A stretch of DNA of 26,397 nt from a virus: positions 1-26,397 of the IMG/VR virus record IMGVR_UViG_3300025697_000126. One strand, written 5' to 3'. The notes beneath the pieces were generated by a model. The model saw nothing but the letters and a program-made list of their open reading frames with translations, had not been told where the DNA came from and did not search any database. Positions within the stretch are counted from its first letter, which is position 1, and every line of letters starts with the position of its first letter. The position numbers were made by a program, and so were the translations under genes. Of this stretch, positions 1,511 to 25,029 are shown piece by piece.

Positions 1511-4500
1511 TCATTTGCTTTTCTGGTAGCGCATCTTGCGGTGCTTGGCGCTAACGGCAGATTCGATCAGGCTGTCAATCCGCTCGTCGTTAATGTCCCT
1601 TTCGGCGCTTGTCCCCAACAAATCTGCGAAGGTATTGCGGATGTCATCCACAGATAAAACGCCCTTGAAGGCAACCATAGCCCGTTTGCGTTTTTCGATT
1701 ATTTCGGCGTATTTTAGTTTAAGAACCTTTCGCGCTTCTAGCCCTGCTTCCTTTTCTGTATCGGTAGCTGTTTCGGCATTGCCTTTTCGGGCTACGGTTC
1801 TATACTCGTTTATAACATCCACCGTCGGGCGCGCGGAATTGTAAATCATGCTGTGCGCCCTATCGCGGGTTATGGTTCGCATCTTGAGCGGGATAACTTC
1901 AGACATAAGAATATCGGATATTTGCTCGTTAGCATCGGCTCTGTCTATTTTTCCAGACGCAACCTTTTCTTCTAGCGAACGCCACCTGCGAAACGCCTGT
2001 TGTACCCTGCGCGGAATAGGCAAGCCCAGCTCTAGCGCGGTTCTTAATAGGATGCCAATAAACTTACGGGAAGCCTGCGGGTCTTCCCTGCTCAAGTCCA
2101 GCATACCCTTGGTCTTGTAATATGATGCGCCCAGCCCGGTTTCCTGACCACGCAGCGCTTTGGATATGGTATTCGGTGTCATGCCGGTCTTGAGGAACAA
2201 TCCGGCGGTTTCCTCTATGAAGTCGCCGAACTTCCGGTTTTGGACGGCCCCCATTATGGCGTCATCCAGCGGGAACGCAAACACGTTGCCCGTAATTACA
2301 TAATCTATTACCGGCTTCCCAGCATCATCCTTGCCCATGCGTGCCAGCATCGGCTTGTTCTGCCAGTAGTCGGGTTGAAATTCCTTCATGGCGCGGAGTT
2401 GGTCGCCGGGGAGTGCGTTGAGCTTTGCCTTGAGTTTATCGCTCAACATCCCCCTGACCCATTCCTCGCCACCAGCCATCATTGCATATATCCCGTTGGA
2501 AATGACGAATCCTATTAGCGGGCGAAGGTCGCCTTTCTTTGCGCTCTCGACAACATTTTTAATCTGGTTCTTTTTAATGCGGATGGAATCAAAGGTGTAT
2601 GTCGGATAATCCGCCAGCGGCAGTTTCGAGAACGACCGCAACAGGCTCGGCAATGAAGACGGGTGCTGGTAGAATGTCTGAACATGCTTGGCGGCTTCAG
2701 CGTCAGTTTTGCCAATCTGCTTTTGCGTGAGATACGATGCGTACTTAGTGATGAAGTCACCATAGGCGTATGCCTTGCCAGCCGTTTTTTGCACCTTCTT
2801 CATGGGAGAAAATAGCCTGTCCAGTAAGTCACCCGAAGTCCCGTGGCTGGTCTTGCGCCCCATAATATCTTCCGCGATACTGGACTCGCGCACATGGAAT
2901 ACCCCTTTTTTGGCAAGGTCTTCCAGGGTTTCAAGCATTTGCGTGTATTCGGGTGTACCCTTTTTTACCGTGGCCAGTTTAGCAACGAACTTCGTGGCGG
3001 TTGCCATGTTGCCGTGGAAGCCGCGCCGTAAGAAATCGCCGGAGCCAATCGCAAAGCTCAAATAGCCCGACAGTAAGTTGCGCTCCGTGGTCGGGAATGA
3101 TGTCGCCACCTGAATTGTGCGCTGGTAGCGAACCAAGTCGTCGATATGGCGCATCACCGCCGACGCCTGCTTTGGTGCGTTATCAAGCAAGTCTGACGTC
3201 GCCTTGCTTACGAAAGCGCCGTCCAGCTTCCCGAAGCGTGTACCGGACAGCCTCGTGGTCAGCCCTTTTGCTTTGTCGGGGGCGGCCTTAGTCCACCATA
3301 CTCCCGCACCTTGCTCTGTAATGTTATTCACCAGCTCCAACCCGGCAAGCATGTTGCCCTGAACCTCTGCTGTGCGTTGCATCCGCTCGATAGGCGTATC
3401 AACCTCTTGGAATAGCTTGCGGAATATCGGGGTAAGCGTTCTGCGGGTCAGGTGGTTCATGTCAATCGGGGACGAACCCTTGCTCGGCCCATCCGTGTCT
3501 TTGCCTAGAATATAATCCACCGTGTCACGGGCGGCGTTCTGTAATGACTCGGTTTTCTGTTGGAACTGAATGAGCTTGCCGCGGGTCATTGCCGCTTGGT
3601 CAACCATAATTCCGTCAATCAGGTTTTGCATCCCCTGGTAGCGGTCACGTAACAGTCTGGCGAAGTCCTGTTGCGTTTCTGTTAATTTGGAAATAGCGGC
3701 GTCCTCTTTCCCTTCCAGATACCGTTGCGTAGCTTTTGCGGCATCGGGCTTCCCTGTCTTAAATAAAATGCGCCCCAGCTTTGTAGCCCGTTTACCAAGG
3801 CGTTCCACTTGAGCGGTTAAATCAGCCTTAATGGAGTCGGCGGCATCAGCGAAGTCGGCTGGCTTTGGAGCGAAACTCTCGCCAAGAATATGACGCATAT
3901 AGAATCTAGTAAGGTAGCTACCCTTGTTTGACCGGACTTGTTTCGCCAAATCACCCTTGCCCTGCTTGACCAGATTATCGGCAATCGCCTCGCTCAATCT
4001 ACCGCGATCATTCAGCACCCATCGCACTTCCTGAATTACGGGGTGGCCGTCTGCTAAGCCGAACTCGGCTTTGAGCTTGTCCACCGACTTACTGCCTTCC
4101 ATCACCATATTGATTGCTTCACGGGCTTTGACGGGATCGGGTAACGCCTTGATCGCCGTCATCACTCGGTTGGCAACCTGTTTGGCGTGGATGTCCACCA
4201 TGTTGAACCTGTTGCGGGAAAGCTCCTCTATCTTACCCCATTCGGCTGTTTCGCCTTTAGCGGTGGTAAGTTCTCGTTTTGTCCAGCGGACAACTTCACG
4301 GCCCATATCGGAAATGCGCTCGGCTCCCGGTAGCGTGGTGACGAACCCGCCAGCGGCGATGTCAATATCGCCCTCGGCGGCAAGCGGCTTTTCTCGTTTC
4401 GCTTCCGGCACAACCCCCTTGCCCTCCACCGGAACGTAGCCCTTCTTACCACGTATCATCCATTTGACTGACTTGTACGGGCCAGCTTCCTTGAGGCTGG

Positions 4501-7500
4501 ATATGTCGTTGATGCTCACTACCGCGCTTTTGCCGTCTGCTGTAGTCGCCGCCACGAACGTCGCTCCCTTGGGCGGCTTGACGCGGACGCCCTGATTGAG
4601 CGCGTCTTCGACGGATAGCGGGGCGGCAGGCGGTAGTGGGGGCTTTATCGGGGGTTTGGGCGGTGGCTTCACCGCTTCTTTCATCTTACCCGCCACTTCC
4701 GGTGTAGTAACTTCAGGCTTAACGCCTGGTTTTGGTTGGATTGGAGCGGGCGGGGGCAAAGGGGGCAAATGTTCGGCATAATCAAGGGCCGCTTTGGATA
4801 AATCGGATTCGTAAAGAAAACTACCATCGGGCTTTTGAAACGCTCTGCGTCCATTTTTGAGAGTTACAACTTTAGCACCTTTCGGGACTTCACGTTCAAC
4901 ATAATCCTTTTGCGTATCTGGTTTCCCATTGATGGAACGGTCTTTATTCAAAACAGATAAGATTTTCCCGCGTTGCATTGCGGACATGTCTTTTACATAT
5001 TGAGCCAGTGGCAAAGCGTCCGTTTCAGCCCGTGCAATTACGGCATCTGCTTTTTCTTTGGCTTCGACTTGAGACCGCATATATTTACTGGCCCATTCCA
5101 CTTCCACGGGGTCTCTTTCTAACACAGGAGTGGCTTTTATCTTGGCTATGCGTTCCTCCGGCGTCATCAACTCCGGCTTGGTCTCAGCCACCTTCTCCGC
5201 CACCGGCTTAATCTTCTCCCTCACCGCCTGCTTCTTATCTGCCATCTTGGCCTTGACCTGCTCGAGGGGGGTGGGCTTGAAAACGTAGCGGTCGCCTTCT
5301 TTGACATAGCCATCTAGCAATTTCATCTTGTAAAAATCAATTGTCTCCGAAGATACTGGCTTGCTTTCGTTTAACGCCGAACGAGTATCTTTAATATGTG
5401 AAACAGCACGGTGATCGGGATCAAACTTCATGCCTTCTGATAAGGCATATTCCTCCGGCGTCATCAACTCCGGCTTGTCCTCGATGGCCTTGGCTACCGC
5501 AGGAACCTCGGCGGCGGGCTTGGCGGGTTGTTTCTTCTTGAAATACCCGAAAGTTTCCGTAATACCTCTTGCCGCTAATGTGGCATCTTTAAGTGTATTT
5601 TTGGAAATATCACCAACATCATCAATATTTTCTCCTCGTAGTATTGCTAGTCGTATTGCAATCTTTTCGATTTGATATTTCAATGGTTGCTTAGCAAGTT
5701 CTTGCGTATACTCGGAAGCCATATATTGATCAACCGCATCAGTGGATTTTTCATTAAGAGCGTAATAGTCTAATATTGCACCAATTTCCTTCTCGTCTGT
5801 GATGCCGCGCTTGTTTAAGTTCCCTTTTATTTCCTTAATACTTTGAGACAATTCGGATGACCCAAGAGAATCTCTTGCCCTATATGCCTCTATCAATTCG
5901 GGGGGCATAGGTTTCCACTCTGGAGATTTTCCTAATTCTTTAGTTAATGGATCGGTTGGATTATAGAGTTTGAATATATCCACGCCATCTTTCTGTAATC
6001 TGCTTTCTATGGAGTCAACTTTTTCTTGAGCCTTTTCACTTGTCATCAACTCCGCACCCTCCCCCCCGGCAGGCTTGGCGGCGGGCTTGGCTACCGCAGG
6101 AGCCTCTCTCGCCTTCGGGGCGGCTTCCGGTGCCTTCGGGGTGGGTATCGTCGGTTTTTGGGCAGGTTCTACCCCCGCCACGGGCTTTGTGGGGGGCGCT
6201 TCCCGAGCTACCGGCTCTACCGCTGGCGCTTTTTTAGGTGGCTCAACTGGTTTTGGCTGTTCGGCGGCGACCGCTTCCTCTTTAGGCTTCAGGGTGATAG
6301 GCTCCCGCGCAACCTGCCTCTGCGACTTCTTGATCAAATCGCTATATTCCTTCGACAGCACAACGGAGTTAGCCATCTCTCGCGCCCGTACTGCATCCAC
6401 CCCGTACTGCTGTTGAAGTAGTGCTTGCGCCCGTGCTTCGGCATCGCCCTTCGGGACGCCAGCCATTACCCCATGCAACACCAACAGCGTGAAGCCGCTT
6501 ATCAGCTTGTCGGTTTCGGTCGCACCTTCACCGGCGGTTTTGTAGCCAATAGCGAACATAGCGGGGTAGGCGAGCGATTGAACGCCCTTGGAGCTGGCGT
6601 GCGCCAACGCCCCTGCCGCCGAAAACAGGACGGCTTGCTTCTCGGCCTCGCCAAGAATCTTGACACGTTCCGTAATAGATGATGTCAGCGGTGCCTGCAA
6701 CTGGCTGTGGAGGCCGAACGTGCTGGCGTTGGCAAGTGCGGTGTTGATGACCCTTGCTGTTATCTTTCCGTATTTCGGGACTTTGGCAACACGATAAAGG
6801 GCATTGGTAATGGCGGGTACTTTGCTCGCAATCTTCGCCGTTGCCATCCCCGGTGCAGCAAACGACGCTACTGTGCCTACTGTTCCCGCGCCCACGTCAA
6901 TAATCTTCTCGCCAACTGTTTCGCCGGGGGGCGGTTGCCATCCCTCGCCTGCCCCAAACGGCAATAGCCCAGCCGTCAGAGCACCAGCGGCTCGCTCGAC
7001 CTTGGTCGGGTCGTAGGCGGTTTGCTTGTATCCGGCAAGTTCCTGCTCCAAGTCGGCGATTTCATCGTAGTCCTTCTTGGTCGGCTGGCCTTCCAGATAC
7101 TTCGGCATCTTGAATATATCGTGCCACTTGGCGTTTGTCTGCAAGGTCTTGCCTGAATCTACCCGCGCTTTCTTGTCTGCCAGCTTGGTTTCGGTCTGGC
7201 GTATCAGAATGTCCATCGGGGTTTCTGGGCCGGTAGGCGGTAATTCCTCCTGCGGGAACGGGTCTAGGGGGTCGGGGTAGTCGGCCAGGTTCTCCGGCGT
7301 GAACTGGATTTCCTCTGGTATCCCCTGCGTGATTGCCGAATACTGATCCGGCGTCCACTTCTGTTGCGTCAACTGTTGGAGCGGGGTCAGTACTGGTTGC
7401 TCAACGGGTTCCGGTATAGCTTCTGCCGGCGGCTCCGGGATCTGCTCTGCAACTCGCGCCTCTGAAGACGGTATTGGCATAGACGGGAATGTCAACTGGT

Positions 7501-7822
7501 CTTGATATTCTGCCAGCAAGTCGCTTGGTGGAGTTTCCCCGTCATCCAGCATCCGCTGAAGCTCGGCTACAATGCCCTGCTTCAATCTGGTATTGCCAAT
7601 CTGATTATCATTCTGCTCCATACGCCCCCGCATATCACCCTTCGGGGGTAGCATGGTTTTATAGCCGAAATCGCGCTCCATCTGGGTTTTTGGTGGGGCG
7701 GCGGCTGGCGAACCCCAATCTATCTCCCACGGCATCGCGTCTTGCTGGACAGGCTCCGGCTGTGAAGCGGCCTGCGCTCCCGCATCACTTTCGCCCCAGT
7801 CAATTTCCCACGGCATAGGCAT
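1511..7822 (-). CDS. Giant internal virion / ejection protein, 2103 aa
   Basis: At 2103 residues this is by far the largest gene. I place its start at the ATG 7822-7820, which overlaps the TAA of the preceding gene as TAATG, with GGAG nine bases upstream. A GTG five codons earlier is an alternative. The N-terminus carries MPWEIDWG twice, 28 residues apart. Residues about 275-460 are Gly/Ala-rich and hydrophobic, which could insert in or line a membrane channel. Residues about 510-590 are a Pro/Ala/Lys/Glu linker. The middle carries the motif ELMTPEE and relatives. The C-terminal half (about 1150-2103) is long, mostly helical and basic. Very large helical proteins at this position in podoviruses, such as T7 gp16 or the long proteins with polyvalent-protein domains, are packed in the head and ejected with the DNA. 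That role is inferred. I see no transglycosylase or polymerase motif. Confidence 0.8.
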   Translation of the reverse strand: MPMPWEIDWGESDAGAQAASQPEPVQQDAMPWEIDWGSPAAAPPKTQMERDFGYKTMLPPKGDMRGRMEQNDNQIGNTRLKQGIVAELQRMLDDGETPPSDLLAEYQDQLTFPSMPIPSSEARVAEQIPEPPAEAIPEPVEQPVLTPLQQLTQQKWTPDQYSAITQGIPEEIQFTPENLADYPDPLDPFPQEELPPTGPETPMDILIRQTETKLADKKARVDSGKTLQTNAKWHDIFKMPKYLEGQPTKKDYDEIADLEQELAGYKQTAYDPTKVERAAGALTAGLLPFGAGEGWQPPPGETVGEKIIDVGAGTVGTVASFAAPGMATAKIASKVPAITNALYRVAKVPKYGKITARVINTALANASTFGLHSQLQAPLTSSITERVKILGEAEKQAVLFSAAGALAHASSKGVQSLAYPAMFAIGYKTAGEGATETDKLISGFTLLVLHGVMAGVPKGDAEARAQALLQQQYGVDAVRAREMANSVVLSKEYSDLIKKSQRQVAREPITLKPKEEAVAAEQPKPVEPPKKAPAVEPVAREAPPTKPVAGVEPAQKPTIPTPKAPEAAPKAREAPAVAKPAAKPAGGEGAELMTSEKAQEKVDSIESRLQKDGVDIFKLYNPTDPLTKELGKSPEWKPMPPELIEAYRARDSLGSSELSQSIKEIKGNLNKRGITDEKEIGAILDYYALNEKSTDAVDQYMASEYTQELAKQPLKYQIEKIAIRLAILRGENIDDVGDISKNTLKDATLAARGITETFGYFKKKQPAKPAAEVPAVAKAIEDKPELMTPEEYALSEGMKFDPDHRAVSHIKDTRSALNESKPVSSETIDFYKMKLLDGYVKEGDRYVFKPTPLEQVKAKMADKKQAVREKIKPVAEKVAETKPELMTPEERIAKIKATPVLERDPVEVEWASKYMRSQVEAKEKADAVIARAETDALPLAQYVKDMSAMQRGKILSVLNKDRSINGKPDTQKDYVEREVPKGAKVVTLKNGRRAFQKPDGSFLYESDLSKAALDYAEHLPPLPPPAPIQPKPGVKPEVTTPEVAGKMKEAVKPPPKPPIKPPLPPAAPLSVEDALNQGVRVKPPKGATFVAATTADGKSAVVSINDISSLKEAGPYKSVKWMIRGKKGYVPVEGKGVVPEAKREKPLAAEGDIDIAAGGFVTTLPGAERISDMGREVVRWTKRELTTAKGETAEWGKIEELSRNRFNMVDIHAKQVANRVMTAIKALPDPVKAREAINMVMEGSKSVDKLKAEFGLADGHPVIQEVRWVLNDRGRLSEAIADNLVKQGKGDLAKQVRSNKGSYLTRFYMRHILGESFAPKPADFADAADSIKADLTAQVERLGKRATKLGRILFKTGKPDAAKATQRYLEGKEDAAISKLTETQQDFARLLRDRYQGMQNLIDGIMVDQAAMTRGKLIQFQQKTESLQNAARDTVDYILGKDTDGPSKGSSPIDMNHLTRRTLTPIFRKLFQEVDTPIERMQRTAEVQGNMLAGLELVNNITEQGAGVWWTKAAPDKAKGLTTRLSGTRFGKLDGAFVSKATSDLLDNAPKQASAVMRHIDDLVRYQRTIQVATSFPTTERNLLSGYLSFAIGSGDFLRRGFHGNMATATKFVAKLATVKKGTPEYTQMLETLEDLAKKGVFHVRESSIAEDIMGRKTSHGTSGDLLDRLFSPMKKVQKTAGKAYAYGDFITKYASYLTQKQIGKTDAEAAKHVQTFYQHPSSLPSLLRSFSKLPLADYPTYTFDSIRIKKNQIKNVVESAKKGDLRPLIGFVISNGIYAMMAGGEEWVRGMLSDKLKAKLNALPGDQLRAMKEFQPDYWQNKPMLARMGKDDAGKPVIDYVITGNVFAFPLDDAIMGAVQNRKFGDFIEETAGLFLKTGMTPNTISKALRGQETGLGASYYKTKGMLDLSREDPQASRKFIGILLRTALELGLPIPRRVQQAFRRWRSLEEKVASGKIDRADANEQISDILMSEVIPLKMRTITRDRAHSMIYNSARPTVDVINEYRTVARKGNAETATDTEKEAGLEARKVLKLKYAEIIEKRKRAMVAFKGVLSVDDIRNTFADLLGTSAERDINDERIDSLIESAVSAKHRKMRYQKSK
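5153..5477 (-). repeat. 28-nt exact direct repeat encoding the ELMTPEE motif
   Basis: The 28 bases at 5153-5180 and 5450-5477 are identical and lie in the same frame, 297 nt (99 codons) apart. Both encode the conserved core PELMTPEE. A third, partial copy (13 identical bases, gtcatcaactccg) lies at 6042-6054 and encodes ELMTSEK, about 194 codons from the nearest full copy. All lie in linker-like parts of the giant virion protein. The DNA identity points to a fairly recent duplication or selection on a short linear motif. Confidence 0.8.
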
Positions 7823-9042
7823 TAGAGTTTTCTCCACGAATCAGGATCGTTTGTAGGCCCGCCAAGATATTCGTGGTCCTGATAGATTCCGCCAACCTGC
7901 GGCCCGCCGGACTGCTGTGGAGCGGGAGGTTGGAGGGTAGGCTGAACAGGGGCAACCGGAGCCTGCGGTATTCCGACCCGCCCCTGCTCGGATTCCCCGG
8001 TTTCTTTGTCATAGCCCCTAGCCATTATGCCCAGTTGAATCTTCTGTTGATATGCCCGCCATGCCCTGATCTCGGAATTATACGCCGACTGTTCTTGGCG
8101 ATCACCGGCCTTCTCGCTGGCAAGGTTCAATATCTGTATTTGGCGTTGTGCGATTGCCTTCTGCTTAACCAAATCGTTAGTGGCTTTCAGTTTAAGAAGG
8201 TTCCCCCTATACTCAAACTCCTGTTCCTTATTTTTCATCTTCAGGTTAGATTTGATCTTGGCTAACTCTACGCGTCCCTCTTGACGCGCCTTCTCCATCG
8301 CTTCTTGCTGACCATACTTGGTGACAAGATTATCTGCCCTCTGTTGCAATGCCTCCTGCGCTATCTGCGTGCGCGCCTGCGTTTCACCAAGCCGCCCTTT
8401 CGCCAACACTTGCTTCGACATGCCGTACCGTTCCTCGACGGGGCGTGTGCCACGAAATTCCGCAAGCTCCCTAGCCGACTTCGCCGCCGACAGTTTGCCT
8501 TGAGCGGTTTCAGCTTTAGTCGCCAACTCGGTCGGGGCAAGGGCGTATTTCTGCGCTTCGATGGCTCCCAGCCGTTCCTGTTCTGGAATCGCGAATTGCG
8601 AACGCCGCTTCAACGTGCCAACGGCCTCGATCTGTTCGGGGGTCTGGTATTGCAATTCCCCGCCAAGCCCGCGCCGTGTGCCGCCGCCTGATAGCTCAAT
8701 ACTGGTCGTATCGCCCAATCCGCGATGGATGCGGGTGGGTATCTTCGACCCAGTAGCCGACTTCTTCGCGCTCCCGTATTTAACGCCCGGAATGGCACGT
8801 GTAGCCCGTGGCGCGGACGGCTGGTAGGTCGTGCCTTGGTTCTTCTGGAACGCCCGCGCATAGCTCATGTAGTTGCCGAACAAGCTCTTGATGCCAGCGG
8901 GTAGATTATCAAACTCGTCTGGCGTGTAAAGGTTGGAGTACATCTTCTTGAATAATTCGTTCTGCTTCGAGCGGTACATTCCGGTGGACGACTCCCATGT
9001 GTCCCCGCCGGACCGCTCATCCCATACGTTAAAAGGTGGCAT
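7822..9042 (-). CDS. Helical, coiled-coil virion protein, probable internal/ejection protein
   Basis: 406 residues, with AGGAG six bases before the ATG. The N-terminal 130 residues are Gly/Ser/Arg-rich. Residues about 135-345 are Ala/Gln/Glu/Lys/Arg-rich with heptad-like spacing, suggesting one long coiled coil. The last 50 residues are Pro/Gln/Gly-rich. Its stop overlaps the start of the 2103-aa gene (TAATG), so the two are probably translated together. Size, helical character and position just upstream of the giant protein resemble the internal core or ejection proteins of podoviruses. That is inference from context, as no family was recognised. Confidence 0.75.
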   Translation of the reverse strand: MPPFNVWDERSGGDTWESSTGMYRSKQNELFKKMYSNLYTPDEFDNLPAGIKSLFGNYMSYARAFQKNQGTTYQPSAPRATRAIPGVKYGSAKKSATGSKIPTRIHRGLGDTTSIELSGGGTRRGLGGELQYQTPEQIEAVGTLKRRSQFAIPEQERLGAIEAQKYALAPTELATKAETAQGKLSAAKSARELAEFRGTRPVEERYGMSKQVLAKGRLGETQARTQIAQEALQQRADNLVTKYGQQEAMEKARQEGRVELAKIKSNLKMKNKEQEFEYRGNLLKLKATNDLVKQKAIAQRQIQILNLASEKAGDRQEQSAYNSEIRAWRAYQQKIQLGIMARGYDKETGESEQGRVGIPQAPVAPVQPTLQPPAPQQSGGPQVGGIYQDHEYLGGPTNDPDSWRKL

Positions 9043-14264: not shown

Positions 14265-15866
14265 TTACGGGCCTGCGAATATCATCTCAATGTTCGTAAC
14301 GGAACTTCCGTCCGACCCGTAGAGATAGTGCGTGTCGGCACCCTGCACATCAATCGTGATCGTGTTGGTACCGGTTGATGCCGTGACGTATTTATAATCG
14401 GAGTTCGCCGTCACTTCTTCAACCAGCGTGCCGTTCGCCAGCGTGAACGCCTCGATGTTGTTGGTCGAAGCCGCTCCACCTAGCGTATCGGTAATCCAGA
14501 AGTGCATTAACCGATAGTCGGAGTTCGCGCTCCCGTCCAGATACAACGCCTGCACAGCAACAACCCCGTTGGTCGTAGCGATTACGCCAGAGACCATGCT
14601 CGGCTTGCCCCATACTTCTGTCTTTTGTGCGGAAGTATCACCGAGGGCCGCGCCGGCGGTCACGGTCGCAACCGCGATGCTGTTGATTTCATCGACGGTA
14701 AACGCTCCGAGGTTGCTCATCGTAAGATCACCGCTCACCGCAACCTCTGAACCTGTGCCGGTATTACCAACAATGAGGTAAGCATCGGTCAGCGCAATGT
14801 TGCTGTCTTCAACGGCTAAATCCTGAATAACCGCAATACCAGTTCGAGGAATCAGCACATCGCCACTGACCACAGCCGCCACGCCTGTTCCGCTAAAGCC
14901 AAACAGCATTTCGCCTTCTGCAAGTGCAATTTCCGTGGCTCCGATACTGGCGTTAGGAACAACAAACTCAGCAGTTCCCACTCCATCGGACGTGAATGTA
15001 TGCGCCGTCACCGCCGCCGAGCCATAGTCAATACTGGTAGCAACCGTGTTGCCAAGGTCCAATGCGCCAGCGGTTTTGGCGTCAATGCCAGAACCAGCGT
15101 CGGCGGTATAAGCCGTAGCGTCAACAGTACCATCAATAATAACGTCATCTCCGGCAGGGTCGAGCGTAATGTCGCCCGTACTGTCAATCTCGCCTTCGAT
15201 ATTGACGATACCATCAGCCACAGACAGGCCATAAGCACCGGCGGCGGTGATAAGCACTGTAGCTTCAGCAGCGGCGTCAGCCGACGTTCCGGTGCGAGCA
15301 TCAGTCACATCAATAAGCGGCTTGCTACCAGGACCAGCCGCAGCGGTTTGGTCTATGGTGATTAGATTGGCGTTAGTCACCAGATTAACGTCAATGGCAA
15401 CCCCGGCGGCACCGTTGATTTCAACTTCGTCGCCAAGCGTGGTTTTCCCGGTCACCCCTAAGGTTTCGCCTATCGTAAATGCGCCGCTAACGTCTGCATC
15501 GCCGGGGAGCGAAAGGTTGGTTGTGGAAATCTGCCCCGAAAAGATCGGGGCAATTATATTCCCGCTACCGTCAATATACGTTGCGCCAGTAACCCAGACC
15601 TCGATATTGGTGTTGGCGGGTAACGCCTGCACCGAAACTGCCAATCCAAGCCCGATGATGAACGCCAATATCTTCTTGTACGGCCCGCCGCCAATGCGAC
15701 CGTCGCCATCAATGTCGGCTCCGAGTTTTGACTCAAGCCAGTCCTTCATCTTTCGCAAGGTGAACGCTATGTTTGCCATTTGTTTCTCCAAATTTTTAAT
15801 GGCCTTCGTGTCCACGTCGGTTTTTGGCTGAACTTTTACTTCAACTTTTTCTTTCTTCTCGTCCAT
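14265..15866 (-). CDS. Fibre-like protein with EF-hand-like loop and membrane/signal segment, 533 aa
   Basis: Residues 1-50 are charged and helical. D51-D53-D55-G56-R57-I58 matches the first half of a calcium-binding EF-hand or dockerin loop, but the usual acidic residue at position 12 is replaced by Pro. Residues 64-81 (KKILAFIIGLGLAVSVQA) are a hydrophobic core ending in a signal-peptidase-like VQA. The remaining 450 residues are Gly/Ala/Thr/Val-rich with fibre-like repeats such as SGAFTIGETLGVTGKTTLGD. The start at 15866 has GGGAG nine bases upstream. A second ATG at 15779 (residue 30) also has a good GGAG, so a shorter form is possible. It follows the major capsid gene and could be a head fibre or an exported adhesin. 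Confidence 0.75.
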   Translation of the reverse strand: MDEKKEKVEVKVQPKTDVDTKAIKNLEKQMANIAFTLRKMKDWLESKLGADIDGDGRIGGGPYKKILAFIIGLGLAVSVQALPANTNIEVWVTGATYIDGSGNIIAPIFSGQISTTNLSLPGDADVSGAFTIGETLGVTGKTTLGDEVEINGAAGVAIDVNLVTNANLITIDQTAAAGPGSKPLIDVTDARTGTSADAAAEATVLITAAGAYGLSVADGIVNIEGEIDSTGDITLDPAGDDVIIDGTVDATAYTADAGSGIDAKTAGALDLGNTVATSIDYGSAAVTAHTFTSDGVGTAEFVVPNASIGATEIALAEGEMLFGFSGTGVAAVVSGDVLIPRTGIAVIQDLAVEDSNIALTDAYLIVGNTGTGSEVAVSGDLTMSNLGAFTVDEINSIAVATVTAGAALGDTSAQKTEVWGKPSMVSGVIATTNGVVAVQALYLDGSANSDYRLMHFWITDTLGGAASTNNIEAFTLANGTLVEEVTANSDYKYVTASTGTNTITIDVQGADTHYLYGSDGSSVTNIEMIFAGP

Positions 15867-15945: not shown

Positions 15946-16860
15946 TTACGCCGCGCCGTTCGTACCGTAGATTTGATACCAGTCATACGGAGCATGGCTC
16001 AACCGGCAGGTAATGACCCAACTCCGGCTGTCGTTCGTGGTGTTCGTGTCCGGCTTGACAGTCGGTGAACGCCGCATATAGAACCGGATCGGCTTCTCGC
16101 CAGTAACCAGGTACCACGCCGTCGAGGACGACAGGTAGTGCCCGATCTCGTATGTCAGCCCGCGATTCTTAATCGCGTTCATTTCGTTCGTGCTCTTGTA
16201 CGGCACTTCGGTCGATTGCAGGATCTCGATGGCGGTCCGCTCGTAAGCGGCGGGGATGATGAGCTTTCTTGGAATCGCCATCACCGGGTTGCCTTCGTGG
16301 TCCTTGAGGCCGGAGAAGTTATCCACACCAGCCCACAGACTATCCGCGCCAAGCGTAACGTCCGTAGCCGGAGCGTTATGCTGTACCGCCCCGCCAGCAC
16401 CCGTAAAGGTCGCGTGACTGCGCTGAATCAGGTACTCGTCCGCCGTGTCGCTCGCGCCAACCGTGAGGGCGGTGAACGCGTTGTTCAGGTCGTAGGCACC
16501 CTGCGTTTCGATCCTGTGGTGCATGGCCTTGCCCATCGACTGCGCCGTCCTTTCGATGACGGGGAACAGCTCGTCTTCCAGAGCTTCCTCGGAAGCGATC
16601 AGCTTATAGCCATACTTCACGTGAGTCCACGTGCGTACCGGACCGGGTTTGAATGTCGTCTCAGACGCGTTCTCATACTCGCCCAATACCCCAGGCATCG
16701 GGAGTTCGCCGTACAGAGACACCTTCTCGTACTGCTTACTGGAGGTCAGCTTTTCGCACCACTTCGTAAATTCCTCCGAGTACAGGTTGAGATACTGATA
16801 GAACGACTTGCGGATACGCGCATCAAACAAGTTCTTCATATTTGCAGAGATAATAGCCAT
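15946..16860 (-). CDS. Major capsid protein, HK97-fold type
   Basis: 304 residues with AAGGAG nine bases before the ATG. The opening NMKNLFDARIRKSF followed by an aromatic helical N-arm, a beta-hinge (about 50-90), an acidic helix (SEEALEDELFP) and the C-terminal SHAPYDWYQIYGTNGAA are the pattern of capsid proteins related to Mu-type major head subunits. It lies after portal, scaffold and a decoration-like gene, the standard head order. HK97-fold subunits assemble the icosahedral shell on the scaffold and mature on DNA entry. No protease gene is present, so scaffold removal may be by exit. It shares an operon with the decoration-like gene 29 bases upstream. Confidence 0.85.
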   Translation of the reverse strand: MAIISANMKNLFDARIRKSFYQYLNLYSEEFTKWCEKLTSSKQYEKVSLYGELPMPGVLGEYENASETTFKPGPVRTWTHVKYGYKLIASEEALEDELFPVIERTAQSMGKAMHHRIETQGAYDLNNAFTALTVGASDTADEYLIQRSHATFTGAGGAVQHNAPATDVTLGADSLWAGVDNFSGLKDHEGNPVMAIPRKLIIPAAYERTAIEILQSTEVPYKSTNEMNAIKNRGLTYEIGHYLSSSTAWYLVTGEKPIRFYMRRSPTVKPDTNTTNDSRSWVITCRLSHAPYDWYQIYGTNGAA

Positions 16861-16889: not shown

Positions 16890-17378
16890 TTATGATGCAA
16901 GGACGTTAGCTTGGTGGTCGCCAATGAACCGCACTATAACTCGCGGATTAGTGTCGCCAACAGCGTCAATGGCTCCAACAACTTCAACCAGCTTCGTGGT
17001 CGTGTCGGCCACATCCACGTACCAGTTGTTGCCGGAAGCGATCAGCGAATACGCTACTCCGATGTGCGTAGCCGCTAGAGCAACGGCCGCCGTCGCATTG
17101 ATTAACGACCCCGCAAACAGGTTGTAATCGTTAGCCTCGACATACGGAACGTCGGAGCCTGCGGTTCCAACGGCATCAGCCGCCGCGATACCAACCGGAA
17201 GGGTAGCGTCGGTCGACCCAGCCCAGATTTCGAGTTCGCCGGAAGTGCCGTCGCGGACCAGCGGAGCGCCAGCCTTAAAGGTCTGGCTGGCTTCCTCGCC
17301 AGGGTCGCGGTCCCAGGTCAGTCCGTCTTTCCCTTCTTGGCGATAAGGTGCCAGAGTTTTCAATACTTGCGTTGCCAT
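16890..17378 (-). CDS. Capsid decoration / head stabilising-like protein
   Basis: 162 residues with AAGGAG seven bases before the ATG. It is small, beta-rich and Ala/Gly/Thr/Val-rich with no long helix or membrane segment. Features include the start LKTLAPYRQEGKDGLTWDRD, an APLVRDGTSGELEIW strand pair and a VGIAAADAV segment. This composition and position, directly before the major capsid gene, match decoration proteins that coat capsid joints (lambda gpD type and similar). The family was not matched exactly. It is preceded by a long structured leader that is rare in this compact genome, so the decoration and capsid genes may be regulated together. Confidence 0.65.
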   Translation of the reverse strand: MATQVLKTLAPYRQEGKDGLTWDRDPGEEASQTFKAGAPLVRDGTSGELEIWAGSTDATLPVGIAAADAVGTAGSDVPYVEANDYNLFAGSLINATAAVALAATHIGVAYSLIASGNNWYVDVADTTTKLVEVVGAIDAVGDTNPRVIVRFIGDHQANVLAS

Positions 17379-18797: not shown

Positions 18798-20960
18798 CTA
18801 AGCCTCCGGTTGAGCGGGTATTGGGCTTCCCGCCTGTTGATTACCCATCTGACCTGAAATCTGGTCGCCGGACTGCTGACCAAGCGTAGGGGGCGACGTC
18901 CCCGCCGGCTGCCCAATAGCCGGGAGTGGAGCCGCGCCCGCCTGCGCCTGTTCGCTACGCTTAAGCTGCTCTGTGCTTGAAATGTGCTGGACCATTAGTT
19001 GCGCGTTCGGGTTCTTGTCACGCTGGGCCTGCCATAACGCCTGCTTGTGAATTGGAGTGTGAACGTCGTGCATTTCGCCCATCTCCGGCTCGTCCCATTG
19101 CCCATAAATAAGCATTTCGTTGTTTTCCCACAATGCGGCTTTAATCGCCTGATCCTTGGCTGGAATGTTTACGAACTCGGCGGGGTTCTGGACGCCCATC
19201 GCCTCGGCAATACGGAGCCTGATTTTAGCCTTTGCGCCAGGGTCTTGGCTCATCTGGTAGAGCTGTAACAGGTTTTGGACGCGGGTGGCCTCGTCCTGCG
19301 CCTCCGATACGCCGTTCAGCTCGACGAGGTAGATGTCGTTCATGTCGAAGGTGAACTCTGCGCCGATCGCCCCGATCTGGCTTACAATGTCCTCGTGCAT
19401 CATAAACGTGTGGACATACTGGACAAACCGGCGCATATACTCGCCAATCAGCGCATCCTCGATGCTCGCCATATCGCTGAAAATCGGGGTAGTCGCGGCT
19501 ACTTTCGCGCCCATGTATTCACTTGCCGAAGTGCGTCCGCCCATCGCCTGACCGATTACGGCGTCCGTAGTGTTCATCATCTCGCGGATCTTCTGCTCGC
19601 AATACTGGATTGTCGGCATTATCGTGCCGGTCATGTCGGCTATCTGCGTTTCAATGAACGCCGACCGGACATCTCCGCGGCATTGGATGGCATTGGAATG
19701 GCCGAAGTCGCATTTGTCACCATCCACGCGCATGGGGTCGTACACAAACGGGCGGCGTGTGTTCTTGGAGCGGTTGTCGATTAGCTGGTTAATGCCGGTG
19801 CAGATTTGGTCAAAGTAGGTTGAAATCTTCTCGCCAGACGAGATGTGATACATTCCAATGTCGTCTTCGGTCTGGTGCGCCGCAAGCAGGGGCACTCCGC
19901 CGGGGAACATATTTTCGCGGATTTCGATTATCTCACAACTGGCCGGATTGCCCAATATCCGCACCCTGAACCGACGTTCGGCTCCATCCTCGTCCCACGT
20001 CTTTGATTCCTTATTGATTGGCAGATTAACCCATAGCACCCAATGTTCGTATTGCTCGCTCGTACCGTCCGACTGTTCACGCTCGGCGTTTTCAATACGG
20101 TCTTGACTAGATGTTCCAAACTGGTCGGATGACGTTTTAACCAAGTATTTCGCAAACTTCTGGCGTAACCCGTTTCCCTCGCTATCTTTAAATAACGCCA
20201 CCTTGTTCTTTTTGCTGTCGGAATACAGTTTACCCCATGAAATAGGGTCTTTGATGGCGATTAGCGACTGGCTTTCTATATCATCCAGCGTTTCATCCAC
20301 CCACACACAGTCTATCGGCACAAACTCGAAGCCGGGCAGGTTGTTCTTGACGGAGGTGTTGGTCTTAATATCGCCAGTTGTCTTATCGCGGTATGATAAA
20401 TCAACCAGCGTTTTCTCCCACGGAAGCGCCACAAACCCATTCCCGTACTTATAGATGTTGAGTAGCGCCCGCTTGAGGTTGCGCTTAAACCGGGTGTTGG
20501 TCTGCGCCTTACGAAACAGGGCGGTCATTATCTCGGCGTTCTTTCCGCGTATCTGGTTGGCGGCTACATCATCCACTATTCCGCGATACCCGAATTTGTA
20601 GTTATCGGGATTGTCCGTGAAGGTCTTGAACGCCATCGACACAAGCTGATTAACGGAAATGTGGTACACACCAGTGGATTCATTGGCGCGGTGCGTGGAG
20701 TCCAGAGAAGAATCCGGCTTGACCCGGTACATCTGGTCGTTCTTTTTCCAGATGTCTGTCAGGCTTTCTCGGTCGCGGATGGAGTTGAACAGCGTGGATA
20801 TGCGTTTCTTGGTTTCATCAACCAGCTCGGACTTCTCCGCGTAGTTCGGAAAGATGTCCAGGATGGTTTCCTGTTGGGCATCGCTGGCCGGGGCAGAAGC
20901 TTCCGGGTCTGGATCTGTAAAAAATTCTGTTGGGTCCATAAAGTCGAGGGGGGCGGACAA
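18798..20960 (-). CDS. Portal protein
   Basis: About 720 residues, close to the P22 portal (725). It forms the 12-fold ring where DNA enters and where terminase and adaptor dock. Recognisable parts are the helical opening (residues 32-75), STGVYHISVNQLVSMAFKTF near 95, the helix and strand ALLNIYKYGNGFVALPWE near 165, and helical C-terminal regions. A Pro/Gln/Gly-rich tail of about 50 residues ends the protein. The start is uncertain: a TTG at 20960 has GAGG only one base away, and the next ATG at 20939 has no ribosome binding site. It lies between the helix-turn-helix gene and the scaffold, as expected for portals. Confidence 0.88.
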   Translation of the reverse strand: MSAPLDFMDPTEFFTDPDPEASAPASDAQQETILDIFPNYAEKSELVDETKKRISTLFNSIRDRESLTDIWKKNDQMYRVKPDSSLDSTHRANESTGVYHISVNQLVSMAFKTFTDNPDNYKFGYRGIVDDVAANQIRGKNAEIMTALFRKAQTNTRFKRNLKRALLNIYKYGNGFVALPWEKTLVDLSYRDKTTGDIKTNTSVKNNLPGFEFVPIDCVWVDETLDDIESQSLIAIKDPISWGKLYSDSKKNKVALFKDSEGNGLRQKFAKYLVKTSSDQFGTSSQDRIENAEREQSDGTSEQYEHWVLWVNLPINKESKTWDEDGAERRFRVRILGNPASCEIIEIRENMFPGGVPLLAAHQTEDDIGMYHISSGEKISTYFDQICTGINQLIDNRSKNTRRPFVYDPMRVDGDKCDFGHSNAIQCRGDVRSAFIETQIADMTGTIMPTIQYCEQKIREMMNTTDAVIGQAMGGRTSASEYMGAKVAATTPIFSDMASIEDALIGEYMRRFVQYVHTFMMHEDIVSQIGAIGAEFTFDMNDIYLVELNGVSEAQDEATRVQNLLQLYQMSQDPGAKAKIRLRIAEAMGVQNPAEFVNIPAKDQAIKAALWENNEMLIYGQWDEPEMGEMHDVHTPIHKQALWQAQRDKNPNAQLMVQHISSTEQLKRSEQAQAGAAPLPAIGQPAGTSPPTLGQQSGDQISGQMGNQQAGSPIPAQPEA

Positions 20961-21581: not shown

Positions 21582-21767
21582 TTAATCACCTCCTTTATCA
21601 GTTTGTTCCGTGCGTTTCTTCATCGTCTCAACCCGCCCGTCCTGCACCACCAGCGCAATCCCGATCTCGCCCCACCAGCCGGGGCGCTCTGCTACATCCA
21701 GCAATCCCATAAGGGATTTTGCGATGTATTCTCGCGGAAGCCGTGATTTCGCTAATTCGTTATGCAC
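21582..21767 (-). CDS. Hypothetical protein, 61 aa
   Basis: A GTG start at 21767 overlaps the end of the tandem Cpn10 gene by 16 bases, with GAGGG about ten bases upstream. The protein ends in GEIGIALVVQDGRVETMKKR, a beta-hairpin pattern (strand, QDGR turn, strand) often seen in tiny phage proteins next to structural genes. The last six codons encode the strong ribosome binding site of the next gene. Function unknown. Confidence 0.65.
   Translation of the reverse strand: MHNELAKSRLPREYIAKSLMGLLDVAERPGWWGEIGIALVVQDGRVETMKKRTEQTDKGGD
21584..21596 (-). promoter_or_regulatory. Near-perfect extended Shine-Dalgarno site
   Basis: The minus strand reads AAAGGAGGTGATT, complementary over about 12 bases to the canonical 16S rRNA 3' tail. 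It lies over the last codons of the 61-aa gene and nine bases (from GGAGG) before the ATG of the 42-aa gene. It is stronger than other sites in the window, and supports the start of the short gene. Confidence 0.9.
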
Positions 21768-22279
21768 AGCACATCACCCTCATCCACGATTTTATAATGT
21801 TTGCCGTCTTCCACGCATGACGCCACGGACTTCTCGTACATCACCGCCAGCCCCGCCCTGAGGTCATAGCACTTGCCAGCCGCACGCAGGACGGTGCCGG
21901 ACTTTATCTGGTTGGTGACATTTGTGAGAACAACGCCTTCGTCTGGAACAACCGTCGGGTCTTCCTTGATGATGGCAAACCTATTTTCCGGCATAATTCG
22001 CTCGACGAAGTTCTCCGCTACGATCTTCGCCAGGATATGCTCGGCATGGGTGGTAGCCATCGTTCTGTCCCTAAACGGGAGAACGGTGTATTCCTTGAGG
22101 AACAGGATTTCATCACCGGCCCCAAACGGGAAGGCTTTATCCCCAACCGCCACTACGGTTGCTCGCCACCCGAACTGTTGCCACAGTTCCGGGATGATAA
22201 TGCCGCCATCATCGGCCTTCTTCGGGTAGCGTTTTACCAGCACTATTTCGCGTAATGGCTTAAACTTGCAATAGCCCAT
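21752..22279 (-). CDS. Tandem GroES-like co-chaperonin with two Cpn10 domains
   Basis: 175 residues, with GGAGG before the ATG, one base after the previous stop. Two Cpn10-like units follow each other. The first (about residues 7-88) has VLVKRYPKKADDGGIIIPE, a VVAVGDKAF strand and GAGDEILF. The second (about 94-174) has RFAIIKED, a DEGVVLTN mobile-loop end, SGTVLRAAG, and VDEGDVLCI. Each has the Gly plus hydrophobic tripeptide (III; VVL) that in GroES contacts GroEL. Phage co-chaperonins such as T4 gp31 help the host GroEL fold capsid protein. A double Cpn10 on one chain is known in chloroplasts (Cpn20), but I know of few phage examples. Its place before the head genes suits capsid folding. 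Inferred from motifs. Confidence 0.82.
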   Translation of the reverse strand: MGYCKFKPLREIVLVKRYPKKADDGGIIIPELWQQFGWRATVVAVGDKAFPFGAGDEILFLKEYTVLPFRDRTMATTHAEHILAKIVAENFVERIMPENRFAIIKEDPTVVPDEGVVLTNVTNQIKSGTVLRAAGKCYDLRAGLAVMYEKSVASCVEDGKHYKIVDEGDVLCITN

Positions 22280-22280
22280 G

Positions 22281-22514
22281 TCAGCCCTCCAAGACTTGTT
22301 GTTCCTTGCATTGCTTGCGCAGTCCCTGAATTATACCCAATGCCACATTAAGACCGTGCACCACGCCCTTGAGCTGGCCGTCTTCATGCGGGATGCCGGT
22401 TATGCGATCGACATTATTATTGCCCTTTACATGTTTCAGGATTTCGTCTTCAATTAACCCCACGCCGGGTTCGTTAATAACCATTTCCACTAATTGTAAA
22501 TCTTCTAGGTCCAT
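22281..22514 (-). CDS. Hypothetical protein, 77 aa
   Basis: GGAGG lies about eight bases before the ATG, inside the end of the terminase gene. The terminase stop ends directly before the start. The protein is acidic at its N-terminus and helical throughout, with IEDEILKHVKGNN and, near the end, ALGIIQGLRKQC. No membrane segment or catalytic motif is seen. It could be a terminase-associated or regulatory protein. No family was recognised. Confidence 0.7.
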   Translation of the reverse strand: MDLEDLQLVEMVINEPGVGLIEDEILKHVKGNNNVDRITGIPHEDGQLKGVVHGLNVALGIIQGLRKQCKEQQVLEG

Positions 22515-24239
22515 TTAATAACCTCCGTGTTTTGTTAATGGCTCGAACTCTTTTGGCCCCTTACTGGCGTAATCGCCCATATACCTCGCATCGGAACACG
22601 CAAGATACTCAACGGTATCAATTAAATGGTCGTCTTTGTTTCGCTTGGTCTCCTTGTTATTGTGGCTTTCGTTGCCAAACATCCGCGTTTCGGTCACGCA
22701 CCGCTCCCATTCCCACCTGAATTTAACGCACTTGTTACTGAAATACATTCTCGGAGCACCATCTTTGCCTGTGACCATGTGCTTTCTGTGCGGGTCAATC
22801 TTGAGGAACGCCCTTAGGTTGCTGGCGCGGTGTTCCTGCCCCATCTTGACGCTCTCGCACACCTTCAGCCCGCCGATCTGGAAGAAGAAACTCACCGGCC
22901 TGCCCATCCCGCCTGCCGTCTGGAAGCAATGCCAGTCCAGCCAGCTCCGCGCGAACTTCTGCCTGATTTCGACCTCATCGTACACGTCGTAATTTATGCC
23001 AGTGTCCTTATCAAGCATCTGCTTTGTCAACTTCCGCTCGTTACCGCACGCCTCGATAATTCCCGGTGCCTGATTTATGGCGTCCATGCCTGCCTTGTAA
23101 TACTCGTCGTACATAAACATATCGCCGGCCGGGTTGACCGCCCACATGCTACAAGCAGTCGGATTGGTGTATCCGTAGTCGATGCTCCTGAAATGCGTCC
23201 AGCCCTTGCCCTTGATGTCGTCGTAAGTCCAATCAACGAAATGGGTGTCAGCCTGAATTTCTGGGTAGAACAGCCCGCTTACATGCTGGAATAGCCCGTA
23301 ATACCGAGCCTTGCCTTCCCTGATGGCTTCCTGGTCGCCGCTCTTTTCGGGGATTTCAACCCATTGCAGGTGGGCTTTGCGCTTCTGGTCGCGGGAATAG
23401 ATATGATCCGGCACTTCATCCACGCTTATCCTGCATCGCTGGATTTCGTGACCGCGCGTATTGTGGCCTGTCCACATATCATGGAGCCATGAGTTCATGC
23501 CGGTATCGGCCCTGCCGTCAACCTTGTGGGGAGTGAAGCAAAAATCCCACCACATCCCGCCACGAGTCCGGCCGCGCTGATCCAGCTCGTTAAAAAACGA
23601 CAGCGGCATCTGCTCGTCCGGCAACACCTCCTCGGCCTTGATACCAGCGCAGACGCTTGCCTTCTGGTCATAGGTCAGAAGCACAATCCTGCTCCCGCAC
23701 TTCAGGTTTACGCTTGGATTTAGCTTCCATGACGGGTCTTTGGTTCCGCCAAGTATAGGCAACCTGAACTCGCCAAGTTCCTTAGCCGGAATCCACTTCT
23801 GCAACTCCGGCCACAGCACCTCCTTCAGCTGGCCCTTGTCGTATCCCAGCGCCACGAGCGTTCTCGGCCCACCCCATTCGCGCCATTTTACGCCATGCTT
23901 GAATATCTCCCAGTCCGGGTCGCACGGAATCATCTTGAGCACCTTCTTGACCACAGCCGCCGCCGTTTTACCGACCTGATTCGGTGAACAGTTGATACAG
24001 ACGGTATGCCGTGTGTCATTGATCCAGTTTGCCACGCTCGCCAACTGGAACCCGCAGTCGTACCCCATCTTGGCCTCGCCGTGCGGGTGGAAGAACTGCA
24101 ACTCATTCTCCATCTTCTCGCGCTCTATCTGCTTCAAGTCCTTTTCAAGCGAGGGGTCTGACTTGATTTCCTCGTATGAGTAGGAAATCTTCTCATGGCC
24201 CAGCCATAGCTCGTAGTATTTGGTTTCGCCGTTGGTCAT
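22515..24239 (-). CDS. terL: Terminase large subunit
   Basis: 574 residues from the ATG at 24239, which overlaps the stop of the upstream gene as ATGA. A longer open frame upstream lies inside that gene and lacks a ribosome binding site. This is the ATP-driven motor that packs DNA and cuts concatemers. Visible motifs are a Walker A variant S85-PNQVG-K91-T92, Walker B EEVLPDE with D208 and E209, a nuclease segment beginning SIDYGYTNP with D354, and a C-terminal KDDHLIDTVEYL with D536, D537 and D541 that completes an RNase H-type metal site. Order and spacing match large terminases. It lies downstream of a small terminase candidate. Confidence 0.93.
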   Translation of the reverse strand: MTNGETKYYELWLGHEKISYSYEEIKSDPSLEKDLKQIEREKMENELQFFHPHGEAKMGYDCGFQLASVANWINDTRHTVCINCSPNQVGKTAAAVVKKVLKMIPCDPDWEIFKHGVKWREWGGPRTLVALGYDKGQLKEVLWPELQKWIPAKELGEFRLPILGGTKDPSWKLNPSVNLKCGSRIVLLTYDQKASVCAGIKAEEVLPDEQMPLSFFNELDQRGRTRGGMWWDFCFTPHKVDGRADTGMNSWLHDMWTGHNTRGHEIQRCRISVDEVPDHIYSRDQKRKAHLQWVEIPEKSGDQEAIREGKARYYGLFQHVSGLFYPEIQADTHFVDWTYDDIKGKGWTHFRSIDYGYTNPTACSMWAVNPAGDMFMYDEYYKAGMDAINQAPGIIEACGNERKLTKQMLDKDTGINYDVYDEVEIRQKFARSWLDWHCFQTAGGMGRPVSFFFQIGGLKVCESVKMGQEHRASNLRAFLKIDPHRKHMVTGKDGAPRMYFSNKCVKFRWEWERCVTETRMFGNESHNNKETKRNKDDHLIDTVEYLACSDARYMGDYASKGPKEFEPLTKHGGY

Positions 24240-24880
24240 TTCTTCGGAATCCTCGATATTACCAGCGCGGTCCGAGTCCGGTGCATACCGCCGTGCGTTA
24301 TCCAGCCCTCGGATAGATGCACCACGGGGATGTCCCAGTCCACCCATATCCCCACCCCAGCCTTCTCACATTGCAAGCAGAAGTACGTGTCTTCGGTCAT
24401 CAGGGAGTCGCCATTGAACATATCAGGCCCGAAAAACCACGGGCGCTTGATTATATCGAACACTTTGCTCTTTATCAACTGCAATTCCCCATACATCTTG
24501 ACCTTTTCTAATCCATGCCGCAGTCTAGGGTTCTTGACCATCCTAAACTTTTTCGTATCTGCAAAAACGTGATCCGCGACATTTGTCGTAAATGGATAAA
24601 ACCGGCTAGAACCCCACCCGCTGACCATCGGCTTGTCGTGATCGATCAGCTTTTTTACATCACCAGGCTCCCAAGCGGAATCGGAGCTTGGAAAAAGCAA
24701 GTGGGTGCACCCCTCTTTTAACGCCAGATCCACAAGCGCCATCCGCGCCTTCGCCGTCGGCTGGCCGTACACCTCAAAAATTACCCTATCACAGTCCGGC
24801 CAGTCAGTCTTGCCCATGCTGACGGCAAAATACGTCTGGCACTCCATGTTGTAAAACGATAGGCAGACGGCCAGTTTCAT
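24236..24880 (-). CDS. Glycosyltransferase-like protein, degenerate DxD
   Basis: 214 residues from the ATG at 24880, which overlaps the 50-aa gene stop (ATGA) and has AAGGAAG upstream. The fold pattern is that of GT-A glycosyltransferases found in phage genomes: a start AVCLSFYN, a central LLFPSSDSAWEPGDVKKLI where the usual DxD becomes S65-S66-D67, a DKPMVSGW segment, and MTEDTYFCLQCEKAGVGIWVDW near residue 161. If active it could modify phage or host glycans. The missing first Asp makes metal-dependent catalysis uncertain. It sits between the two terminase genes and is translationally linked to both neighbours. Confidence 0.75.
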   Translation of the reverse strand: MKLAVCLSFYNMECQTYFAVSMGKTDWPDCDRVIFEVYGQPTAKARMALVDLALKEGCTHLLFPSSDSAWEPGDVKKLIDHDKPMVSGWGSSRFYPFTTNVADHVFADTKKFRMVKNPRLRHGLEKVKMYGELQLIKSKVFDIIKRPWFFGPDMFNGDSLMTEDTYFCLQCEKAGVGIWVDWDIPVVHLSEGWITHGGMHRTRTALVISRIPKK

Positions 24881-25029
24881 CGCTTTTCTTCCTTTATTTT
24901 TAAGTCGATATTGTTTGCCCAAATAAAGATAAAAAATAAAAGCAAAAGTTTCCAATCAAACCACGTTACACATAAAACACTTCCAGCCAAAGCCAACAAA
25001 TACATCCAAATACACAACCCTAGTTTCAT
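24877..25029 (-). CDS. 50-aa protein with two transmembrane segments, holin candidate
   Basis: A frame of 50 codons plus stop opens with ATG at 25029, overlapping the 85-aa gene stop (ATGA), with AAGGGG about ten bases upstream. It closes with an ATGA overlap onto the glycosyltransferase-like gene. Residues about 5-24 (LCIWMYLLALAGSVLCVTWF) and 27-41 are hydrophobic, separated by a short Asp-Trp turn, and the C-terminus is charged (KIKEEKR). This matches small class II-type holins. It is visibly richer in A and T than its neighbours. No lysin lies next to it, so the holin call is inference. A small membrane accessory protein is possible. Confidence 0.7.
   Translation of the reverse strand: MKLGLCIWMYLLALAGSVLCVTWFDWKLLLLFFIFIWANNIDLKIKEEKR

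Follow-up and report, generated by a model that had tools for sequence, protein, structure and literature searches.

Tandem Cpn10 (GroES) domains in one chain encoded in the packaging and head-gene block of a phage clade

The locus and its gene order

The window, i.e. the whole stretch of DNA that was analysed, comprises the 26,397 bases of one virus record. At 21752..22279 (minus strand) it carries a gene for a 175-aa tandem-Cpn10 co-chaperonin, assigned on the basis of the open reading frame, Pfam, PHROG and profile searches, AlphaFold and Foldseek. The start codon is ATG, and a Shine-Dalgarno-like GGAGGG (22285..22290, minus strand) lies 5 nt upstream of it. Directly upstream is a small gene of 77 aa (22281..22514, minus strand) that has no family match and that, by ORF comparison, adjoins the co-chaperonin gene in nearly all relatives. 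It is preceded by the gene of the terminase large subunit (TerL; 22515..24347, minus strand), recognised by phrog_5653 (E 6.5e-5) and by synteny. TerL, the 77-aa gene and the co-chaperonin gene follow each other in this order with almost zero spacing. The portal gene (18798..20960, minus strand) was assigned from its size, its position and its synteny with annotated relatives, as it gave no significant family match. The major capsid protein (MCP, 304 aa; 15946..16860, minus strand), a probable client of the co-chaperonin, matches phrog_371 (8e-8), Phage_capsid_4 (9.6e-9) and Mu-like_gpT (3.1e-6). An earlier note, made from the letters of the window, had placed the co-chaperonin gene next to the head genes, and we indeed find it inside the packaging/head block, between terminase and portal.

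The gene order shared by the clade is p25195, (a glycosyltransferase-like gene), TerL, the small gene, the Cpn10 chain, portal, a scaffold-like gene, p17498, a decoration-like gene and MCP. In the window a phrog_1574 gene at 24236-24955, whose function is unassigned and which looks glycosyltransferase-like by eye, overlaps the start of TerL; its homologue in the relative L172 lies just after the Cpn10 chain. The region 1511-7837 is one ORF of 2108 aa with no Pfam match; its product is perhaps a giant virion-internal protein.

With terminase, portal, scaffold and capsid genes as neighbours, the gene might encode a virion component, in the head or connector, that is built of Cpn10-like barrels. 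We consider this very improbable, as the sequence matches are to co-chaperonins and not to head proteins, and the conserved mobile loops (see below) would serve no evident purpose in a static component.

Two Cpn10 domains in one chain

The whole 175-aa protein scored 42.2 bits with the Pfam Cpn10 model PF00166 (cut-off 21.1; E 8.5e-11) in two stretches, and PHROG 3188, 'co-chaperonin GroES', likewise matched it in two stretches. The N-terminal domain (residues ~5-86; 22022..22267, minus strand) spans positions 1-93 of the 93 of the PF00166 profile and, in the AlphaFold2 model, the strands E12-17 to E82-89; the N half by itself reaches 34.3 bits, above the curated Pfam cut-off. The C-terminal domain (residues ~96-174; 21758..21994, minus strand) was delimited by the phrog_3188 stretch (E 0.012 for the C half by itself), by the match to Thermus thermophilus GroES, by the AlphaFold2 model and by the C half of Cpn20. 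Taken by itself, the C half of the window protein falls below Pfam Cpn10 detection. The boundaries proposed earlier (7-88 and 94-174) agree with these limits to within a few residues.

Two tandem Cpn10 domains are the hallmark of Cpn20, e.g. Chlamydomonas CPN20/CPN23, Arabidopsis Cpn20/21 and Plasmodium cpn20. The chloroplast/apicoplast Cpn20 has its domains head to tail, as the phage protein does, and is its best full-length PDB match both by profile and by fold, so the likeness drawn in the earlier note holds. Already with the single sequence Chlamydomonas Cpn20 ranked first (residues 6-172), and the A3 profile, which comprises the window protein and 11 homologue rows (12 in total), matched the Cpn20 chain 7ekq_R across 6-178 of 181 positions (E 5.6e-18). 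When the halves of this profile were used separately, the C half matched Thermus GroES (6.5e-7) and the N half human Hsp10; bacterial GroES scored 39 bits (T. thermophilus) with the C-half profile and 29 bits with the N-half profile.

The two halves also resemble each other. Hhalign aligned the N-half and C-half profiles with a probability of 97.7% (E 2.1e-12), and HMM cross-matches between the halves reached 29.5 bits, as against ~10 bits for the best among thousands of shuffled sequences. In two relatives each half exceeds the curated Pfam cut-off by itself, i.e. 29.0 and 25.7 bits in L022, and 29.1 and 22.4 bits in L024. It is confirmed that the 175-aa ORF joins two Cpn10 (GroES) domains, one after the other, in a single chain; this was the central claim of the earlier note, and the double HMM match that it had proposed as a check was obtained.

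Since the second half of the window protein is by itself unseen by Pfam, one may suspect that it resembles Cpn10 by chance, or that two adjacent single-domain genes were joined by an error of assembly or annotation. The probability of this is negligible: the same architecture recurs in contigs that were assembled independently, at 26-59% identity, so that the homologues refute it, and the L022 and L024 scores together with the profile, fold and shuffle tests point the same way.

The AlphaFold2 model (12 rows; pLDDT 83.3, pTM 0.78) is an all-beta chain with two barrels. Its Foldseek matches in the PDB to GroES, Hsp10 and Cpn20 had a probability of 1.00, in other words both barrels belong to the Cpn10 beta-barrel fold. 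Cpn20-type chains came out on top, with query-normalised TM values of 0.69 for 7ekq_R (195 columns) and 0.67 for 7ekq_Q, whereas single-domain Cpn10 chains reached 0.28-0.39, which indicates that both domains superpose simultaneously. A structure prediction had been suggested earlier as a check, and its outcome agrees with the tandem architecture. A second half that folds as something else is ruled out by the Cpn20 profile match, Foldseek, hhalign and the Pfam scores of L022 and L024.

We note that the top structural match, 7ekq, is a Chlamydomonas ClpP complex containing Cpn11, Cpn20 and Cpn23. Instead of being a folding lid, the phage protein might accordingly cap a different machine of the host, such as a protease of the ClpP type, or act as a decoy for it, or it might inhibit the host chaperonin. 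We find this quite improbable, given that the gene sits in the packaging/head block, that the capsid-type group elsewhere keeps an ordinary GroES near the capsid gene, and that the loop tripeptides are conserved and of the GroEL type.

The roof segment, i.e. the stretch from the VG/AG strand end to the glycine turn of the next strand, has ~8 residues in each half as compared with ~17 in E. coli GroES, and the model shows no strand in the gap from E39-45 to E57-60, nor in that from E126-133 to E145-148. As both halves are without the long roof-hairpin segment of GroES, the dome is probably open, like that of T4 gp31. In Chlamydomonas Cpn20 the segment is, according to the profile alignment, missing from the N half only. 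T4 gp31 serves capsid folding, is without roof loops and has a wider opening (PMC6318259). Gp31 and RB49 CocO share with the window protein the phage-encoded Cpn10 fold, the missing roof loops being a gp31-type trait that the window protein has as well, and gp31 (1g31) was among the Foldseek matches. They differ from it in having one domain per chain and an experimentally shown binding to GroEL; moreover, the mobile loop of gp31 is longer.

Each domain has a segment that corresponds to the mobile loop. In the N domain it comprises residues 20-36 (22172..22222, minus strand) with the tripeptide I27-I28-I29 followed by the invariant P30, and the pattern I-x-(I/V/L)-P occurs in 12 of 12 rows. In the C domain it comprises residues 107-124 (21908..21961, minus strand) with the tripeptide V116-V117-L118, and the pattern (V/I/L)-x-L is found in 11 of 12 rows, being lost in L005. 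Judged from the sequences, hydrophobic tripeptides suited to GroEL binding are present in both domains, as had been noticed before. Even apart from the loss in L005, the C-half loop is the more variable one across the rows. The C halves are also less conserved over their length, the mean pairwise identity being 0.33 versus 0.40 for the N halves. Both halves are under purifying selection: in L008/L009, dN and dS, taken from the least saturated pairs, were 0.106 and 1.85 for the N half and 0.097 and 0.86 for the C half, i.e. dN is well below dS.

The lower conservation of the C half, its varying loop and the fact that it is too diverged in the window for Pfam to detect by itself would fit a half-active lid or adaptor, in which only the first domain engages GroEL, while the second, having diverged, keeps the ring together or contacts a phage client. 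We take this possibility seriously but regard it as unlikely, because the hydrophobic-x-L tripeptide is kept in nearly all C loops, the C halves are under purifying selection, and the C-half profile is nearer to bacterial GroES than the N-half profile.

Relatives, a three-domain chain and the age of the doubling

A scan with the co-chaperonin protein found one record, in which the same virus had been assembled a second time (IMGVR 3300025669_000867). The clade was collected by means of scans with TerL, with an MCP alignment and with wider TerL alignments. Relatives were counted without the second copy of the window virus, and contigs that are nearly identical (L006/L007; L024/L025/L026) were counted once. 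Each of the 11 distinct IMG/VR relatives that include the region encodes a chain of several Cpn10 domains between terminase and portal; the chain is double in ten of them (26-59% identity to the window protein) and triple in one. The source of several relatives is metagenomes 3300035698, 3300025642 and 3300025586, which are listed in a publication on Ace Lake in Antarctica (PMC8542988).

The triple chain is a 292-aa homologue at 8046-8924 of L172 (IMGVR_UViG_3300028920_000009; 49 kb, TerL 47% identical). Its domain 1 matches the clade N profile (59.5 bits) and its domain 2 the clade C profile (37.7 bits); domains 2 and 3 separately exceed the Pfam cut-off of 21.1 with 31.1 and 32.1 bits. AlphaFold modelled domains 1-2 well and gave no model of domain 3, because only one row covers it, and the third domain thus rests on its Pfam score. 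A second copy of the three-domain protein was found neither in IMG/VR nor in cultured phages. The third domain has a longer loop region ahead of a VVLPE motif.

In a domain tree of 38 rows, the deep branches of which are weakly supported, all N halves cluster together (100/99), as do all C halves (90/80), and domains 1 and 2 of L172 fall into the matching groups. The doubling is thus older than the clade, and neither half is a recent copy of the other. The Cpn20 halves are outside the phage N and C groups, at poorly supported deep branches. In contrast to Cpn20, the window protein is encoded by a phage, in a head-gene block, and the domain tree holds no evidence of plastid ancestry.

Capsid-related phages with a GroES near the capsid gene are CRP-901, HTVC023P, DSL-LC04, MinM2, MW202785 and MW202796, the capsid proteins of such cultured or complete phages being related at 24-31% identity. 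Their single-domain GroES gene comes after the portal gene, three genes ahead of the capsid gene, and GroES is a core gene of the HTVC023P-type phages (PMC9599517). The GroES of the marine podovirus-like phages (HTVC023P, CRP-901, DSL-LC04, Caulobacter phage RW, MinM2) thus resembles the window protein in its location in the head-gene region, with related capsid proteins in most of these phages. It differs in having one domain (107-150 aa), in its place after the portal gene and in forming a separate group in the tree, where the deep nodes are weak. A simple duplication of this single-domain GroES is not supported, since both halves are closer to bacterial-type GroES and the tree, with its weak deep nodes, sets it apart. 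In L033, L034, L036, L037, L038, L040, L041 and L042 three genes separate the single-domain GroES from the capsid gene (or a likely one), and throughout this set (marine, spring-water and Caulobacter phages) GroES directly follows a gene of ~55-75 aa.

Across 1,202 bacterial genomes of six phyla, the double-domain profile detected no two-domain protein and had no match at all at E <= 1e-11, a survey that may miss more diverged doubles; as a control of sensitivity, the profile finds Chlamydomonas Cpn20 at 5.6e-18 among 177,635 sequences. In the single phylum that was scanned at 1e-9, four matches appeared, each covering one half only, and the ORFs concerned have 102-124 aa. An initial set of 20 diverse bacterial genomes contained Cpn10 genes of ordinary single length, apart from one weak match (G019:C47:15058-15381; 42 bits) inside a 1278-aa open frame of the L114 genome, a member of the Gemmatimonadetes.

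Tblastn against cultured phages yielded just weak N-half matches in Bacteroides phages, where the matched gene has 87 aa. Foldseek against BFVD revealed more double-length viral Cpn10s, namely A0A516L046 (304 aa), A0A516LTQ1 (183 aa), A0A516LJK4 (186 aa) and S0A356 (200 aa). The last is gp096 of Cellulophaga phage phi18:3 (KC821620, 41458-42060), which matches the fold over 206 columns (TM 0.65/0.58), is annotated as chaperonin cpn10/co-chaperonin GroES, adjoins large structural genes downstream and is present at 99-100% identity in four cultured Cellulophaga phages. Unlike the window protein, it is Cpn10 by sequence in the C half only; sequence support for a second Cpn10 domain was not found in its N half, where the evidence is the predicted fold. 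The same phage has an 84-aa single-domain cpn10, gp080 (31108-31362).

The earlier statement that known phage co-chaperonins carry one domain thus has to be amended, in view of these double-length viral proteins (the 200-aa Cellulophaga protein among them) and of the three-domain L172 chain. Double-length phage Cpn10s are present in deposited data beyond the clade, where they are apparently not described as tandem, and a full-text search of the open literature found tandem Cpn10 described for plastid lineages only and none for phages. The window protein is a real, conserved phage version of the Cpn20 architecture, of which a tripled variant exists as well, and we found no earlier description of it in the open literature.

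A possible lid for host GroEL

We think it probable (roughly 0.8) that the two-domain Cpn10 chain is a phage co-chaperonin, acting as a lid on host GroEL in the folding of phage head proteins. We infer ring formation, GroEL binding and head-protein clients as follows: the chains would assemble into a multi-domain ring, the mobile loops of this ring would bind host GroEL, and the lid would then close the chamber in which phage head proteins fold, with the 304-aa MCP as the first candidate. A Cpn60 (GroEL) gene was not found in the five clade records that were searched, so the chain most likely caps the GroEL of the host; as the records are genome fragments, a GroEL gene or a further, single-domain cpn10 may lie elsewhere in the genome. 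An MCP profile scan of genome contigs for a host gave no matches. As to the capsid-folding role, GroES genes near capsid genes speak for it by their position only.

The two-domain Plasmodium cpn20 can substitute for GroES in E. coli (PMC3542282). For Cpn20, both a tetramer and a hetero-oligomer in which three Cpn20 chains join one Cpn10 have been reported, and lids of 6 to 8 linked domains function on GroEL (PMC3542282; PMC5780408). By analogy, the phage protein could be a homotetramer, with 8 domains of which one would be idle, or could combine as three double chains with one host GroES subunit, which would give exactly 7 domains. The ring with fewer chains that was suggested earlier is thus plausible. 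A three-domain chain such as that of L172 would fit 2 x 3 + 1, which is arithmetic and not evidence. Most tentatively, and with more doubt than belief, we suggest that a phage lineage, apart from plastids, evolved multi-domain chains which, together with one GroES subunit of the host, make up a hybrid lid of seven positions (3 x 2 + 1 or 2 x 3 + 1), so that few phage chains suffice to turn host GroEL towards capsid folding.

How an even or odd number of domains works on a seven-fold chaperonin has been stated as a puzzle in the case of Cpn20 (PMC5780408). Phages of one clade, in which the chain is doubled or tripled, provide an independent natural test of even- versus odd-domain lids; they also let one ask whether phages form hybrid lids with host GroES, and they supply compact natural multi-domain lids for chaperonin studies. 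Multi-unit lids have thus arisen in viruses, most likely for the protein-folding machine of their hosts.

The earlier note had sought the reason for the double unit in a large or unusual capsid protein. As the MCP has only 304 aa, while the capsid protein in the T4 case is a 56-kDa protein (PMC6318259), this idea is not supported, and the MCP matches are of the Phage_capsid_4 and Mu gpT type. Ahead of MCP the window has one copy of the decoration-like gene (16890-17378), and L004, L008-L010, L022 and L024 have two. After MCP, at 14265-15866, it encodes a 533-aa repetitive protein, which ranges among the relatives from ~170 to >500 aa and varies greatly in sequence, with short highly similar patches.
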